64,000 nucleotides of DNA from Parafannyhessea umbonata (GTDB lineage: Bacteria; Actinomycetota; Coriobacteriia; Coriobacteriales; Atopobiaceae), in the NCBI RefSeq assembly GCF_900105025.1, contig NZ_LT629759.1:1922001-1986000 (forward strand), in the 5' to 3' direction. A model generated the notes under the pieces. The model searched no databases and was not told the DNA's origin. It worked only from the letters and a program-made list of their open reading frames with translations. Shown piece by piece: positions 6,655 through 51,487 of this stretch. A program made the translations under genes and the position numbers. Within the stretch, counting starts at the first letter, position 1; each line of letters starts with the position of its first letter.

Positions 6655-6707
6655 TGATCCTCCTATAGATAACCGCCACGGGACTACCCCTGCGTCGGCG
6701 ATGGTAT

Positions 6708-6737
6708 ACGCTACCATTCAATGGTTCGGTCTGTCAA
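6708..6737 (-). promoter_or_regulatory. promoter of rpmG-tRNA-Trp-secE-nusG
   Basis: Minus strand: TTGACA (6732-6737), 18-nt spacer, TAGCGT (6708-6713), about 55 nt upstream of rpmG and downstream of the tuf terminator. Confidence 0.55.
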
Positions 6738-8434: not shown

Positions 8435-8494
8435 ATTCCGTTTTCAAGCTGCTTGCTCGTTCGTTCGCGAGGACTTCCCTTGCAAGCGGAAAGT

Positions 8495-8523
8495 ATACTA
8501 CGGCCCGGGGGCCCGCTTGTCAA
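8495..8523 (-). promoter_or_regulatory. promoter of tRNA Tyr-Thr-Met-tuf
   Basis: Minus strand: TTGACA (8518-8523), 17-nt spacer, TAGTAT (8495-8500), about 60 nt before tRNA-Tyr. This is one of the best promoter matches in the window. Confidence 0.75.
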
Positions 8524-34408: not shown

Positions 34409-34834
34409 CTACTCGATGGTGACCTTCGTCACGTTGGACTGCCTCTGCTGCTTGGGGACGTTCACCGTAAGGACGCCGCCCTCGAGCTTGGCGGAAAGCC
34501 CTTCTCGCGCGGCGTCCTTAAGGTACACGCCACGGGACGCCTGCCACTCCGAGGTCTCCTTCTGCAGGTAGGTCCTGCTCTTCTTCTCGTCGGACTCCTT
34601 CTTGTCCACGCTGATGGAGAGGCGACCCTCGTTAAGCTCCACGTCTACCTGGTCCTTCGTGACGCCTGGCAGCTCCGCGGAGACCACGTACGCGTCACCT
34701 GCGTCCTCCACGTCCATCTTGAAGCCGTAGTCACCGGTAACCTTTGCCAGGGGCGCGAAGAAATCGTCCATGGAGTCGAACGGCCAGCTGCGAAGTGCCC
34801 TGTCAAGGCTTGTGTACGGAATCATGCTCGTCAT
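34409..34834 (-). CDS. Hsp20/alpha-crystallin small heat-shock protein
   Basis: ATP-independent chaperone that holds unfolding proteins. 141 residues from the ATG at 34834 (GGGAG 8 nt upstream). The alpha-crystallin domain spans about 35-135 with AYVVSAELPGVTKDQVDVEL and the consensus AKLEGGVLTVNVPK. The C-terminal IxI/V tail is VTKVTIE. It has an upstream element (34970-34994) shared with dnaK and clpB, so it likely belongs to the same heat-shock regulon. Confidence 0.93.
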   Translation of the reverse strand: MTSMIPYTSLDRALRSWPFDSMDDFFAPLAKVTGDYGFKMDVEDAGDAYVVSAELPGVTKDQVDVELNEGRLSISVDKKESDEKKSRTYLQKETSEWQASRGVYLKDAAREGLSAKLEGGVLTVNVPKQQRQSNVTKVTIE

Positions 34835-34969
34835 GACTATCACTCCCTATGGTTGGTGGCGCCCGCCTTTCGGCGCCGTCGTGCGCTTTTGCGTTCGTAG
34901 ATGTTTGTTCCCGCGGGTGCCTGATTTAAACACGTAAAGCAAGGTTTTCTTAGCGACACAAGCTCATCA

Positions 34970-34994
34970 AATCTAAGCGTGCTTGTACTAGGTT
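34970..34994. promoter_or_regulatory. heat-shock inverted repeat upstream of hsp20
   Basis: AATCTAA-N11-CTAGGTT, matching the dnaK and clpB elements with two changes in the right arm. It is 136 nt upstream of hsp20. Confidence 0.5.
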
Positions 34995-37754: not shown

Positions 37755-40406
37755 CTACTCCACCGTGTCCGGCTCGACAGGCGCGTCGTCCGACGGCTGG
37801 TCGGAGTTCTCGCCGGCGGGGACGGGCTCCGCAAAGAGCTGGTCGTCCGCGCCCACGTCGATCCTCGCGGTGTCGCCCTCGTGGAGCTTGCCCGCGATGA
37901 TGAGCGACGCGACGTTGTCCACCACTTGGCGCTGGATGAGGCGCTTGAGCGGACGCGCGCCGTAGACGGGGTCGAGCCCGTCGAGCGAGAGCGACTGGAT
38001 GGCCGCAGGTGTGAGCTCGAGCTTGATGCGCTCGCGGTCGAGGCGCTTGCGGACGTCCTTCAGCTGGATGTCCACGATCTTCTCGATGTCGTCGAGGCCC
38101 AGTGCGTGGAAGACCACCACGTCGTCGATACGGTTGAGGAACTCCGGCTTGAAGGTGGCACGCAGCGCGTCGTTCACCTGCTTCTGGACGACCTTGGGGT
38201 CGCTCGAGGCATTGGCGCCGGCGATGTACTGGCTGCCGACGTTAGACGTCATGATGATGATCGTGTTCTTGAAGCTCACGACGCGGCCCTGGCCGTCGGT
38301 CAGGCGACCGTCGTCCAGTACCTGCAGCAGGATGTTGAAGACGTCGGGATGCGCCTTCTCCATCTCGTCCAGGAGGATGACGGAGTACGGACGACGGCGC
38401 ACGGCCTCGGTGAGCTGGCCACCCTCGTCGTAGCCCACGTATCCTGGGGGCGCGCCGATGAGGCGCTGGACGCTGAACTTCTCCATGTACTCGGACATGT
38501 CGATGCGGACCAGGGCCTTCTCGTCGTCGAACAGGTACTCTGCCAGGGCCTTGGCGAGCTCGGTCTTGCCGACGCCCGTGGGGCCGAGGAAGAAGAAGCT
38601 GCCGATGGGGCGGTTGGGGTCGGAGAGTCCGGCACGGCTGCGGCGCACGGCCGCGGCGACGGCCTTGACGGCCTCGTCCTGGCCCACGACGCGCTTGTGG
38701 AGCTCCGCCTCCAGGTTCTTGAGCTTGTCCATCTCGCCCTGCATCATCTTGCTGACGGGGACGCCGGTCCACGAGCTCACGACCTCCGCTATCTCGTCTG
38801 GGGTAACCTCCTCCTTCAGGATGCCGCCGGCCTCCTGCTTGGACTCGAGCGCGTGCTCGGCCGCCTCGTAGCTCTTCTGGAGCTCCGGGATCTTGCCGTA
38901 GCGCAGCTCGGACGCCTTCGCGAGATCGCCCGCACGCGTGGCCATCTCGACCTGCGACTTCGCATCCTCGATCTGGCTCTTGAGGTCCTGGACGTGGTCA
39001 ATCGCGTCCTTCTCGTTCTTCCAGTTGGCCTTCATGCCGTCGAGCTTCTCGCGCGTGACCGCAATCTCCTTCTGCAGCGCGGCAAGACGCTCCTTCGAGG
39101 CGGCGTCCTCCTCCTTCATGAGGGCCTGCTCCTCGATCTGCTTCTGGGTCAGCTCGCGGTCGACGGCGTCGATCTCCGCGGGCATGGAGTCGAGCTCCAT
39201 GCGCAGGCGGGACGCGGCCTCGTCCACCAGGTCGATGGCCTTGTCGGGCAGGAAGCGCTCGCTGATGTAGCGGTTGGAGAGGTCTGCGGCAGAGACCAGC
39301 GCCGCGTCCGTGATGCGCACGCGGTGGTGCTGCTCGTACTTCTCCTTCAGGCCACGCAGGATGGATATGGTGTCCTCAACCGTAGGCTCAGACACGAACA
39401 CCGTCTGGAAGCGGCGGGCAAGGGCCTGGTCCTTCTCGATGTACTTGTGGTACTCGTCCAGCGTCGTCGCACCGATCATGTGCAGCTCGCCACGGGCCAG
39501 GGCCGGCTTCAGGATGTTGCCGGCGTCCATGGAGCCCTCGGTCGCACCTGCGCCCACGATGGTGTGCAGCTCGTCGATGAAGAGGATGACCCTGCCGTTT
39601 GCCTTCTGGACCTCCTTCAGCACGCTCTTGAGGCGGTCCTCGAACTCGCCGCGGTACTTGGCGCCAGCGACGAGCGCGCTCATGTCAAGCTCCACGACCT
39701 CCTTGTCCTTGATGGTGGAGGGCACGTCGCCCGCGGCGATGCGCTCTGCCAGGCCCTCGACGATGGCGGTCTTGCCGACGCCAGGCTCGCCGATGAGGAC
39801 GGGGTTGTTCTTCGTGCGGCGGCTGAGTACCTGGATGGTGCGGCGGATCTCCTCCACGCGGCCGATGACCGGGTCGAGCTTGCCCTGGCGGGCGAGGTCC
39901 GTCACGTTGCGACCGTACTGCTCCAGCGCCTCGAACTGCGTCTTCGCGTCCTGCGAGGTCACGCGCTCGTCGCCGCGCAGGTCGTTGAACGCCTCCTGCA
40001 CGCGCTTGCCCGTGATGCCCGCGCCGCGCAGCGCAGATCCGGCGTCGCCCTTCTCGTCCGCGAGCGCGCACAGCAGGTGCTCGCTCGTAACGTAGCTGTC
40101 GCCGAGCTTGGAGGCGAGCTTCTCGGCCTCGTCGCCCACGCGACGGAGCTCGTTGCTGATGCTCATCTGGCTCATGTCACCCGTGACGCGCGGAGCGTGC
40201 GCGATGGTCTGGTCCACCTGCGCCTCGACCTGCGCGGGGTCCGCCCCCACGCGCTCGATGATGGCGGTGATGTTGCGCTCGTTGGATTGCAGCAGCGCCT
40301 TCAGCAGGTGGATGGGGCGAACCTCACCCGCCTCGGCGTCGGCGGCTATGCTGACGGAGGACTGCAGCGCCTCCTGGGCCGTCACTGCCCACTTGTCGAA
40401 TCTCAT
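37755..40406 (-). CDS. clpB: chaperone ClpB (disaggregase)
   Basis: Hexameric AAA+ machine that rescues aggregates with DnaK. 883 residues from [14 protein letters not shown] (AGGGAG upstream). Clp-N repeats (1-145), AAA-1 with GEPGVGKT and [10 protein letters not shown], a long middle coiled coil (about 400-525), and AAA-2 with [12 protein letters not shown] and [17 protein letters not shown]. The long coiled-coil M domain identifies ClpB rather than ClpC. Its upstream element is shared with dnaK and hsp20. It is monocistronic, bounded by terminators. Confidence 0.97.
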
Positions 40407-40474
40407 GCTTTTCTCCCTTCTGGGAATCTGGTTATCAAGGTTCATTGTTCCCCATGAGCTGGGGCTTATACAAA

Positions 40475-40499
40475 AATCTAAGTCGTTGTTAGATAGATT
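40475..40499. promoter_or_regulatory. heat-shock inverted repeat upstream of clpB
   Basis: AATCTAA-N11-ATAGATT overlaps the probable -35 of a minus-strand promoter; TGTATAAG lies just downstream (40467-40474) as an extended -10. It matches the dnaK element closely. Confidence 0.6.
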
Positions 40500-45596: not shown

Positions 45597-46025
45597 TCAG
45601 ACGCCGCGGCCCTTGCCGTTCGAGAGCAGTCCACGCATGACCTGCTCCGGTCCCGCGCCGTCGTAGCGCGCGAGGGCCGTGATCTTCTCCCTCATGCGCA
45701 GCTCGTGGACCTCGTCCTCAAGCTCGCGCACGCGGCGGCGCAGGCGGTCTATCTCCTTGTCGCGCTCCATGGCGCGCTCGCGCATGTCCAGGATCCTCAC
45801 CACACCGGCGAGGTTGATGCCCTCGTCGGTCAGCTTGCTGATGAGGTTCAGCCGCTCGATGTCGCCTTGCGAGTACAGGCGCGTGTTGCCGCGCGAGCGC
45901 CCGGGCGTGACGAGCCCCTTCTGCTCGTACACGCGCAGGGTCTGCGGGTGCATGCCCGTCAGCTCCGCCGCCACGCTGATCATGTACAGTGGCTTGCTCT
46001 TGTCGTCTTCGTCCCTACGCGCCAT
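45597..46025 (-). CDS. hspR: heat-shock repressor HspR (MerR family)
   Basis: 142 residues from the ATG at 46025, which overlaps the dnaJ end by 11 nt. The MerR HTH reads YMISVAAELTGMHPQTLRVYEQKGLV and the wing PGRSRGNTRLYS. A C-terminal coiled coil (ERDKEIDRLRRRVRELEDEV) follows. In actinobacteria HspR binds HAIR operators with DnaK as co-repressor. Being the last gene of dnaK-grpE-dnaJ-hspR, it fits the Streptomyces model of feedback control. Confidence 0.92.
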   Translation of the reverse strand: MARRDEDDKSKPLYMISVAAELTGMHPQTLRVYEQKGLVTPGRSRGNTRLYSQGDIERLNLISKLTDEGINLAGVVRILDMRERAMERDKEIDRLRRRVRELEDEVHELRMREKITALARYDGAGPEQVMRGLLSNGKGRGV

Positions 46026-46989
46026 AGCGTTCCACGTCCTTTCGGTAGTCGCGCCTGTCATTATCCCTCATGACCTGCAGCGACTCCCTCTCCTTGGGCG
46101 TAAGGTGCGTAGGCACCACGACTTTCACCGTGACGTACATCGCGCCACGGCTCCCCTTGTGCTTCACGTCGGGGGCGCCAAGGTCCCTGAACCGGAACGT
46201 CTTGCCGTCCTGCGTGCCGGCGGGCACCTTCAACCTGACCTCGTGCCCGTCCGGCGTGGGAACGTCCACCTGGGCGCCGAGCGCCGCCTCGAAAACGCTT
46301 ATGGGCACCTCCATGCGCACGTCGGCACCGTCACGCTTGAACAGCGGATGCTCGGCCACGTTCGTCGTCACCACAAGGTCGCCGCGCGCGCCGCCGTTCA
46401 TGCCGTACTCGCCGCGGCCGCGGTAGCGGAGCTTGCCCCCGTCCACGGCACCGGCCGGCACCTTCACGGTAAGCGACTGGCGCTCGCCCGTGGAGGGTAT
46501 CGTGTACGACACCTTGCGTTGCGCGCCGGAAAACGCCTCCTCCGCGGATATGTCGATGGACATGGTGAGGTCGCCGCCCTTGACGGGCCTGTTCGATCGC
46601 GCCGCGCCGGGGCCTCCCGCCCCGCCGAAGATGGACGAGAAGTCGAACCCGCCAAACGCACCGTCGCCGTTCCTGATGTTGTCGAATATCTCGGACCAGT
46701 CGGCACCGTTCGCACCCGTCGTGTACGTGTACGTACGGTTGCGTCCGCCCGAACCGCCAAAGTCCGCGCCGGGGATGCCACCAAACATCAGCAGCTGGTC
46801 GTACTCCTTGCGCTTCTGGGGGTCGGAGAGCGTCGTGTACGCCTCGCTGATCTCCTTGAACTTCTGCGCGTCGCCGCCCGCGTCCGGATGGTACTTCACG
46901 GCCAGCTTGCGGAAGGCCTTCCTGATCTCGTCGGCGTCGGCGTCGCGCTTCACGCCAAGGATGTCGTAGTAGTTCCTCTTGTCCGTCAT
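46015..46989 (-). CDS. dnaJ: DnaJ/CbpA-type co-chaperone lacking the zinc finger
   Basis: 324 residues. J domain with HPD (VKYHPDAGGDAQKFKEI). A Gly/Phe-rich segment (about 75-130) and two C-terminal beta domains follow (ITVDI-like MSIDISAEEAF, VVTTNVAEHPLF, RLKVPAGTQDG). There is no CxxCxGxG repeat, so it is CbpA-like (class B) rather than classical DnaJ. Operon position after grpE and before hspR suggests it is the main DnaK partner of this operon. Confidence 0.93.
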   Translation of the reverse strand: MTDKRNYYDILGVKRDADADEIRKAFRKLAVKYHPDAGGDAQKFKEISEAYTTLSDPQKRKEYDQLLMFGGIPGADFGGSGGRNRTYTYTTGANGADWSEIFDNIRNGDGAFGGFDFSSIFGGAGGPGAARSNRPVKGGDLTMSIDISAEEAFSGAQRKVSYTIPSTGERQSLTVKVPAGAVDGGKLRYRGRGEYGMNGGARGDLVVTTNVAEHPLFKRDGADVRMEVPISVFEAALGAQVDVPTPDGHEVRLKVPAGTQDGKTFRFRDLGAPDVKHKGSRGAMYVTVKVVVPTHLTPKERESLQVMRDNDRRDYRKDVERYGA

Positions 46990-47062: not shown

Positions 47063-47836
47063 TTACTCGGCGTCGGCGGCCTTGCCGGGGTCCTTCGCGC
47101 CGCCCTTGGCGTCGGAATCGTCCTCCGCCTTGGGAGCCGGGCGCTTCGGCCCGCCAAAGGTCACCGTCACCATGGCGTTCCTGATGACCTTGCCACCCAT
47201 GGAGTAGCCCTTCTGGTACACCTGGGCCACGGTCTCGTCGTAGGCGTCCTTGTTCTCCTCGCGTCCCACCGCCTGGTGGATCAACGGGTCAAACGGCTCG
47301 CCCACGGGGTCGATCACCTCGACGCCCTCCTTCGCCAGGACGGAGAGCATCTTGTCGTGCACCGCGTTCACGCCGTCCACAAACTGCATCAGGCTCTCGT
47401 TGTCCGCGTCGTTCTTCGCGGCGTGCTCGGACGCGCGCTCCATGTCGTCCAAGACCGGCAGCAGGTTCACCACGAGCTTCTCAGCAGCGCGCTCGCGCTC
47501 GTCCAGGCGCTCCTGGGCCGTGCGCCTGCGATAGTTGTCCCAGTCCGCCTGAAGGCGCACCAAGCGCTCGCTTGCGTCCGCGGCCTGCTTCTTCGCAGCC
47601 TCGACGTCAGCGGCAGCCTCCTCGAGCTGCTTCTGCAGCTCGTCGCGCTCCGCGCGCACCTTGCTTGCGTCCGCCTTGAAGTCCTCGGCGGCAGCGGCCT
47701 CGCCCGCACGCTTCGCAGCCTCCACGCGAGCCGCCTCCTCCTCGGGATCAAGCTCGTCCGTCGCCTTCGCTTCCGGCGCGGCCTGGGCCTCAGTGGATTT
47801 GTTCTTCTCCTCCGCGTCCTCGACTGGCACCTTCAC
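47063..47836 (-). CDS. grpE: nucleotide exchange factor GrpE
   Basis: 257 residues, longer than usual (about 190) because of an Ala/Glu-rich first 70 residues. A long dimerisation coiled coil is followed by the GrpE domain: RLQADWDNYRRRTAQER, LLPVLDDMERA, and the C-terminal GGKVIRNAMVTVTFG. It lies 81 nt after dnaK and 73 nt before dnaJ. Confidence 0.95.
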   Translation of the reverse strand: MKVPVEDAEEKNKSTEAQAAPEAKATDELDPEEEAARVEAAKRAGEAAAAEDFKADASKVRAERDELQKQLEEAAADVEAAKKQAADASERLVRLQADWDNYRRRTAQERLDERERAAEKLVVNLLPVLDDMERASEHAAKNDADNESLMQFVDGVNAVHDKMLSVLAKEGVEVIDPVGEPFDPLIHQAVGREENKDAYDETVAQVYQKGYSMGGKVIRNAMVTVTFGGPKRPAPKAEDDSDAKGGAKDPGKAADAE

Positions 47837-47917: not shown

Positions 47918-49825
<1,908 letters not shown>

Positions 49826-49931
49826 GGTGTAGTTCCTTTCCCTGTCTCCCAAGGACGGCCATGCCGGCTTCGGGACGTTCTATCCTCGTTGTACAATCCT
49901 CATTGTTCCCATGCGTTTTGATTCTATACAT

Positions 49932-49956
49932 AATCTAAGTCCTCACACATTAGATT
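49932..49956. promoter_or_regulatory. heat-shock inverted repeat upstream of dnaK
   Basis: Perfect AATCTAA-N11-TTAGATT. On the minus strand TGTATAGA lies directly after it as a -10, so the repeat covers the -35 region, a good place for HspR. It shares flanking sequence with the clpB copy (CATTGTTCCC, TATACA). Confidence 0.65.
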
Positions 49957-50824: not shown

Positions 50825-51487
50825 CTAGCCATCCAGTCCGTACTGCGCCTTAGAACTGACGCTTCCGTCGGTGAACGTGATCGACGCACTGGACCCAATG
50901 GACTCGCCGGTCCAGTTGTAGAGCTGGGAGGTGTGGCCGGAGATCTTGGTATCGCTCTGGAGCTCTCCGTCGCCGCCCATAATGTCCTTGACCTGGTCAT
51001 ACGTCATGCCAGTCTGCACCTGGTTGTACTTGTCCATCGTAGCTTTCGCGGCGGACTGATCGTTCACGCCAAACTGGGCCTTGTTAACGACTTGGTCGTT
51101 CTGGAACGTGACGTTTGCGACGCCAAAGCCGTCGGACTTCCACTCGTAAATCGTCGTGGTTATGTCGCCCACCTGGTTGGTGGTCTGCTCGGTTCCATCG
51201 GAGCCGATGATCTGCTTCACCTGCTCGTAGCTCATACCGTTCTCGATCTTCTTGAACTTGTCTGCATTGATCTTCGTATCGTCAGACGAGTCCGAACCGC
51301 CCTTCTTGGTGTTCGTGGTGCCAGAGGTGGCAGTGGCAGACTCCCCGCCCTTGTCGCTCGACTTGCTTCCAGATCCACCGCTCGCGCAAGCCCCGGCCAC
51401 CGCGATGATCGCGACGATGACAACTACCAGCAGAAGCTTGTGCCCCTTCTTCTTTGGGGCGCCGTCCGTGTCGCTCTTCCTCGACAT
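50825..51487 (-). CDS. repeat lipoprotein (DUF3862/BLIP-like)
   Basis: 220 residues. N-terminal signal (LLLVVVIVAIIAVAGAC) with a weak lipobox ending in Cys34, then a Ser/Gly/Thr-rich linker. Two tandem repeats of about 70 residues follow: DKFKKIENGMSYEQVKQIIG... and DKYNQVQTGMTYDQVKDIMG.... The GMxYxQVKxIxG pattern is typical of small BLIP/SmpA-fold domains. It probably sits on the outer face of the membrane; the ligand is unknown. A 17-bp palindrome (CTCTGCTG-G-CAGCAGAG, 51621-51637) lies upstream and may be an operator. Confidence 0.8.
   Translation of the reverse strand: MSRKSDTDGAPKKKGHKLLLVVVIVAIIAVAGACASGGSGSKSSDKGGESATATSGTTNTKKGGSDSSDDTKINADKFKKIENGMSYEQVKQIIGSDGTEQTTNQVGDITTTIYEWKSDGFGVANVTFQNDQVVNKAQFGVNDQSAAKATMDKYNQVQTGMTYDQVKDIMGGDGELQSDTKISGHTSQLYNWTGESIGSSASITFTDGSVSSKAQYGLDG

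Follow-up and report, generated by a model that had tools for sequence, protein, structure and literature searches.

A predicted HspR operator of derived HAIR type beside SigB-type promoters of dnaK, clpB and hsp20 in Parafannyhessea umbonata

The systems closest to the locus described here include the HspR/HAIR circuits. As given in passages of two sources (PMC6102357, PMC9004370), the classical HAIR operator reads CTTGAGT-N7-ACTCAAG and the HAIR of Bifidobacterium reads AAAsTTGAGysw-N6-CTCAAsTTTT, with A-rich flanks. A passage of PMC10415612 describes the Mycobacterium HspR as binding its operator with DnaK as co-repressor. For SigB promoters, the consensus is stated as GTTTAA-N12-14-GGGA/TAA/T in a passage of PMC8346170 and alternatively as GTTTAA-N15 (+/-2)-GGGTAT in one of PMC9847131.

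We analysed a window of 64,000 nucleotides (the whole stretch of DNA presented above) from Parafannyhessea umbonata, a member of the Atopobiaceae. In this window dnaK (first gene of dnaK-grpE-dnaJ-hspR), clpB and hsp20 all lie on the minus strand, and each is preceded by an element of the form AATCTAA-N11-TTAGATT. The original prediction had noted that this sequence is not identical to classical HAIR, and indeed three of the first seven letters of the arms deviate from it. From sequence comparison, the element is most likely an HspR operator, a lineage-specific form of a known site. We assign a probability of roughly three in four to the whole model, in which a derived, symmetric HAIR is read by HspR beside SigB-type promoters.

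The element and its copies

The three copies were re-found where first reported, with no mismatch before dnaK, one before clpB and two before hsp20, all in the same 7-11-7 layout (Table 1). The genome-wide scan (2,353,093 bases) returned these three sites as the only matches at up to two mismatches, a threshold at which the backwards pattern used as control had no match in this genome. At up to three mismatches the window still holds only these three, with 0.08 expected from shuffles; the whole genome has seven further places with exactly three mismatches, and the backwards pattern nine places at up to three. All 61 genomes of the family contain at least one match at up to two mismatches, with 236 forward places vs 51 for the backwards control. 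Thirty element loci of the family were fetched, 23 of them with dnaK, clpB, hsp20 or groEL and seven without any of these genes.

Table 1. Predicted regulatory sites and genes of the window (positions in the window)
Feature	Position	Strand	Basis
Predicted HspR operator of the dnaK-grpE-dnaJ-hspR operon	49932..49956	.	Perfect; HAIR 25-bp register
SigB-type promoter of dnaK	49905..49929	-	-35 GTATAG 49924-49929, spacer 13, -10 GGGAAC 49905-49910
dnaK	47918..49825	-	Profile match
grpE	47063..47836	-	Profile match
dnaJ-type gene of the operon	46015..46989	-	Profile match below cut-off
hspR, proposed repressor	45597..46061	-	NF047375 119.2 bits (cut-off 105); MerR_1
Predicted HspR operator of clpB	40475..40499	.	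One mismatch
SigB-type promoter of clpB	40447..40471	-	GTATAA-N13-GGGAAC, 3 bp past operator
clpB	37755..40406	-	Profile match
Predicted HspR operator of hsp20	34970..34994	.	Two mismatches
Probable second, degenerate HspR site of hsp20	34946..34970	.	Conserved in 35 aligned upstreams
SigB-type promoter of hsp20	34907..34931	-	GTTTAA-N13-GGGAAC, 38 bp past first operator
hsp20	34409..34843	-	PF00011

As a list of targets, the original trio of dnaK, clpB and hsp20 stands but is incomplete, as groES and a second hsp20 elsewhere in the genome also carry versions of the element. The groES version, AATCTAA-N10-TAAGATT (genome 2313119-2313142, locus L137), has a spacing of 10, not 11, and its strong arm on the distal side; that of the second hsp20 (genome 2139726-2139750) has three mismatches. 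Before htpG, a weak HspR-like palindrome, GACCTAA-N11-ATAGGTT, scores 10 of 14, a value reached by 5.7% of 300 shuffles. At the hsp20 of the window, the alignment of 35 hsp20 upstreams supports the probable second site, shifted by one 24-bp step towards the gene; there the right-arm score is the best of 58 offsets and the left arm ranks fourth of 64. In the same upstream region (window 34922-34970) a further left arm, the third, may lie at the promoter.

Two further observations concern the surroundings of dnaK. At 252 bits, the operon's DnaJ (324 aa) falls short of the DnaJ cut-off of 377; its match is split into two stretches, which gives the impression that the zinc-finger region is absent. 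A protein with BLIP/DUF3862/BamE-like matches (window 50836-51487) adjoins the dnaK promoter region.

Descent of the operator and its likely reader

Upstream regions of dnaK were compared among 60 genomes of the class, of which 58 had dnaK, and 80 other genomes of the phylum, of which 74 were usable. The class genomes comprised the Atopobiaceae (family f1), the families f3 and f2, which are probably Coriobacteriaceae and Eggerthellaceae, and class outgroups. When textbook HAIR is extended by two flanking bases, it reads AACTTGAGT-N7-ACTCAAGTT, spans 25 bp and falls in register with AATCTAA-N11-TTAGATT. With both arm types allowed, a spacing of 11 gave the best mean score among spacings of 4 to 18 in all five groups, the means being 12.68 in Atopobiaceae, 13.00 in f3, 13.54 in f2, 13.69 in class outgroups and 12.36 in other classes vs 9.17-9.74 in shuffles.

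Across Actinomycetota the dnaK sites form a series from HAIR/HAIR through a hybrid, AACTTGACA...CTTAGATT, to the symmetric AATCTAA...TTAGATT. Two HAIR arms are found in Streptomyces-like genomes, and the hybrid in f2, in class outgroups and in several other classes, where intermediate right arms such as TCAGATT are also present. In Atopobiaceae and f3 the left arms are changed as well (AATCTAA, AATCTCA, AATCTTA, AATCTAT and others, with AACCTTA in some). The left arm at dnaK is nearer to AATCTAA in 16 of the 19 Atopobiaceae (three ties) and in 13/13 of f3, and nearer to AACTTGA in 13/13 of f2 and 13/13 class outgroups; the right arm is nearer to AATCTAA in 57 of the 58 upstreams of these four groups, with one tie. 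By descent the element would work like HAIR, though it is not textbook HAIR with its CTTGAGT/ACTCAAG arms.

The placement of hspR within the dnaK operon was confirmed by its profile match (Table 1). The gene is present in 148 of the 149 genomes of the class, and it shares the strand of dnaK in all 133 fetched stretches that contain both. Neither HrcA nor CIRCE, which the original prediction had proposed looking for, was found in the genome: HrcA gave no match (7/14 named genomes were positive as control), and CIRCE, TTAGCACTC-N9-GAGTGCTAA, occurred at no place with up to three mismatches. Textbook HAIR itself is not enriched, with 56 forward places at up to three mismatches vs 57 for the control. 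Because of this prevalence and strand arrangement of hspR, and because HrcA, CIRCE and HAIR enrichment are lacking in this genome, binding of the derived operator by HspR is the simplest reading.

The original prediction had left the choice between an HspR that reads a changed operator and another factor. The first option gains from the 25-bp register, the intermediates, the prevalence and strand of hspR and the lack of HrcA and CIRCE; for the second, a search that covered HrcA and CIRCE found nothing. That a different DNA-binding protein reads the element, HspR acting elsewhere or on other sites, would suit arms that depart from textbook HAIR and a search of this breadth, but we regard it as very unlikely given that HAIR's 25-bp register is kept with intermediates across the phylum, that hspR accompanies dnaK in all 133 stretches and that neither HAIR enrichment nor HrcA or CIRCE was found in this genome.

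We also examined whether residues of the HspR wing covary with the operator, using 117 of 130 tips (13 were dropped, as their best site scored below 12 or the motif was missing). Among the 60 tips outside the class, operator position 23 is not A in 31/38 of those whose HspR wing ends in RRYS (or RRYA), and is A in 19/22 of those with RLYS, RMYS or RVYS (Fisher p 3e-7). A Pagel-type test on the DnaK tree gave p = 0.045 with only four inferred wing changes, for which reason the wing residue as a specificity switch stays a lead. The HspR of Atopobiaceae and f3 carries an extra C-terminal stretch (PEQVMRGLL and similar) past the ends of the f2 and outgroup proteins.

Promoters and the SigB/F/G sigma gene

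At dnaK and clpB the element was originally thought to overlap a sigma-70 -35, with an extended -10 following at once. The comparison does not support this part of the prediction: a SigB-type promoter, missed at the time, fits there instead. The upstream regions of dnaK, clpB, hsp20 and groES each contain a GTTTAA-like -35, a spacer of 12-14 bp and a GGG-A- -10. The -35 starts 2 bp after the operator at dnaK, 3 bp at clpB and 14 bp at groES (GTATAA-N12-GGGTAG); outside the window, htpG (L315) likewise has GTATAC-N13-GGGTAT.

The pattern GTWTAN-N12-14-GGGNW, which was shaped on dnaK, clpB, hsp20 and groES of this genome, occurs at 21 places genome-wide vs 2 for the control; these include the four genes and htpG, which emerged from the genome search. 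Four of the 21 places are copies of a single sequence that recurs at 5.2-kb intervals, presumably the rRNA operons, and several of the remaining ones sit in long open frames. At two loci (L314, L317) the pattern lies 50-70 bp before genes for a Band 7 protein and a short-chain dehydrogenase, both of which are additional candidates for the sigma regulon. Two more matches lie in the window on the minus strand (6685-6709 and 8475-8498).

Among the dnaK upstreams, the SigB-type pattern is found in 16/19 Atopobiaceae, 12/13 of f3, 0/13 of f2, 1/13 class outgroups and 0/74 genomes of other classes, where shuffles predict 0.04-0.38 per group; three Atopobiaceae and one f3 upstream lack it. The sigma-70 pattern TTGAYA-N16-18-TANNNT has the distribution 0/19, 0/13, 11/13, 11/13 and 29/74 in the same order. 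In the hybrids the left arm doubles as TTGACA, the -35 of a sigma-70 promoter that runs through the operator.

A MerR-type activator at a long-spacer promoter was considered and rejected. According to a passage of PMC5045206, such activators have a spacer of 19-20 bp and a dyad set 7-8 bp away from the -35, measured from its 3' end. In the hybrids about 4 bp separate the end of the -35 from the dyad that follows and the spacers measure 16-18 bp, and the operators of the window lie upstream of the -35.

We further examined 80 named loci around hspR, which are partly from the same genomes as the family-level sets, so that the two collections are not independent. Of 58 usable dnaK upstreams, 57 have the operator (score of at least 12) and 57 the promoter, separated by 2 bp in 56/56 with both. 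For clpB (58 usable) the operator is present in 54 and the promoter in 30, with a gap of 1-4 bp in 29/30, and for hsp20 (31 usable) the operator is present in 25 and the promoter in 24, with a gap of 37-39 bp in 17/18 with both. The match of the full promoter pattern at only 30 of the 58 clpB upstreams counts against a strict SigB-type reading.

The fixed 2-bp distance at dnaK would be expected if the element were no operator and served as an upstream element of an alternative-sigma promoter. The distances at clpB and hsp20 and at the groES of this genome vary, however, and relatives that lack the sigma gene have the same right arm within their sigma-70 promoters; we hold this explanation to be extremely improbable.

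The genome encodes a sigma factor (at 657671) that passes the SigB/F/G subfamily profile TIGR02980 with 291.7 bits (cut-off 234.35) and stays below the cut-off of the SigB equivalog TIGR02941 (221.5 vs 315 bits). The gene before it has a weak RsbW match (27 bits vs a cut-off of 145) and no Pfam match. No SigB-type pattern was found before the sigma gene in any of 20 loci (1.5 kb upstream, oriented). This result, the shortfall at the equivalog profile and the weak RsbW match weigh against the model. The survey for this gene covered the order and found it in 47 of 80 genomes: 23/23 Atopobiaceae, 21/21 of f3, 2/2 of f64 and 1/1 of f68. The 33 other genomes lack it (f2 0/21, five further families 0/12), numbers to be read with a control in which 1/14 genomes exceeded the cut-off and with many of the smaller-family genomes being drafts, 90-97% complete.

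The dnaK upstreams of 13 genomes from smaller families, three with the sigma gene and ten without, were examined in the same way. The three with the gene have no TTGA left arm (AATCTAT, AACTTTA and AATATAT) and have GTATA 2 bp past the operator, with the full pattern in two. A TTGA left arm is seen in eight of those that lack the gene; of the remaining two, one reads TACTTGC and the other yields no convincing site. The sigma-70 pattern is present in six of these ten genomes. In the DnaK tree, Atopobiaceae, f3, f64 and f68 form one clade with support of 0.965 (f69 is unplaced). The promoter swap is therefore one event, so that sigma gene, promoter and arm change are seen to coincide once only. 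The f64 genomes seem to have the new promoter already, but their left arms (AACTTTA, AATATAT) still differ from AATCTAA, a state that suits a promoter change preceding that of the arm.

One could keep HspR as reader of the changed operator and assign the promoters to sigma-70 with an extended -10 (TGTATAGAAT at dnaK, TTGTATAAG at clpB), GGGAAC being a motif in the untranslated leader. The TATA-like letters after the operator at these two genes, the variable SigB-type -35 and the incomplete coverage of the clpB upstreams agree with this. We nevertheless consider it rather unlikely, as the distance between GTWTA and GGG is kept at 12-15 bp, the two remain paired even where they lie farther from the operator (dnaK of L067 and L068, hsp20, groES), the upstream box of the pair at hsp20, GTTTAA, is no -10, and the SigB-type pattern tracks the distribution of the sigma gene.

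Proposed regulation and relation to known systems

In the evolutionary scheme that we favor, each arm would have changed from AACTTGA to AATCTAA while the ancestral 25-bp register was kept. The change of the gene-proximal arm, whose new form also occurs in other classes, probably dates back to the class ancestor; the distal arm would have changed only in the lineage whose heat-shock genes moved to SigB-type promoters downstream of the operator, the loss of the sigma-70 -35 leaving the left arm free to change.

As to function, we infer that a sigma factor of the SigB/F/G type transcribes dnaK, clpB, groES, hsp20 and perhaps htpG, and that HspR, expected to have DnaK as co-repressor, binds beside the promoter and bars RNA polymerase. 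At dnaK and clpB the gap between the end of the operator and the -35 is 2-3 bp, small enough for such a block. The distance of 38 bp at the clear hsp20 site and the spacing of 10 at groES fit the model less well, although the probable second hsp20 site lies one step nearer. Upon heat, HspR would be released and the sigma factor activated, such that the heat-shock genes may depend both on the stress sigma factor and on the departure of the repressor. A variant, which we think unlikely, is that HspR acts on the SigB-type holoenzyme from upstream in a two-key decision, or is even an activator at some genes; HspR would then have moved from across the sigma-70 -35 to a fixed place upstream of the SigB-type -35 (2 bp at dnaK).

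If repression by HspR beside SigB-type promoters is correct, chaperone induction in a large group of commensals, Atopobiaceae and, by inference, Coriobacteriaceae, is predicted to depend on a general-stress-type sigma factor. The locus would also document the drift of a repressor site in which one arm serves as a promoter box too, and the way in which a switch of sigma factor can set that arm free. Because the operator arms have changed, a search with textbook HAIR would miss the predicted HspR regulon of this group.

In the literature searched, outside which most subscription papers fell, we found neither HspR combined with SigB-type promoters nor a HAIR changed in both arms, and no paper in which HspR and Coriobacteri* appear together. 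A partnership of HspR with a stress sigma factor is known from Corynebacterium SigH; control by HspR through SigB-type promoters and the doubly changed HAIR seem to be new.

As far as the cited passages describe them, the HspR/HAIR systems of Streptomyces and Bifidobacterium share with this locus the association of hspR with dnaK, the dnaK operon and clpB as targets, and a 25-bp repeat when the A-rich flanks are counted. Unlike in those systems, both arms here are AATCTAA and not AACTTGA(GT), a SigB-type promoter adjoins the operator, no HrcA/CIRCE partner is present, and hsp20 and groES are also predicted targets. In Helicobacter pylori, according to a passage of PMC6102357, a HAIR-like core nucleates several HspR dimers (three are proposed), to which the 24-bp step at hsp20 may be compared; the arms and the promoter class differ, and tandem sites occur here at hsp20 only. 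The SigB-type promoters of Bacillus and Streptomyces, as outlined in PMC9847131 and PMC8346170, resemble ours in their GTTTAA-like -35, 12-14 bp spacer, GGG-A- -10 and the presence of a SigB/F/G sigma gene, whereas here the -35 is mostly GTATA(A/G), the promoter is combined with a putative HspR operator and the RsbW match is weak. The regulation proposed here can also be compared with that of Corynebacterium glutamicum, where a passage of PMC3489674 has HspR and the stress sigma factor SigH acting jointly on the heat-shock regulon; SigH is an ECF sigma factor, whereas the sigma factor and promoter of Parafannyhessea umbonata are of the SigB/F/G type.
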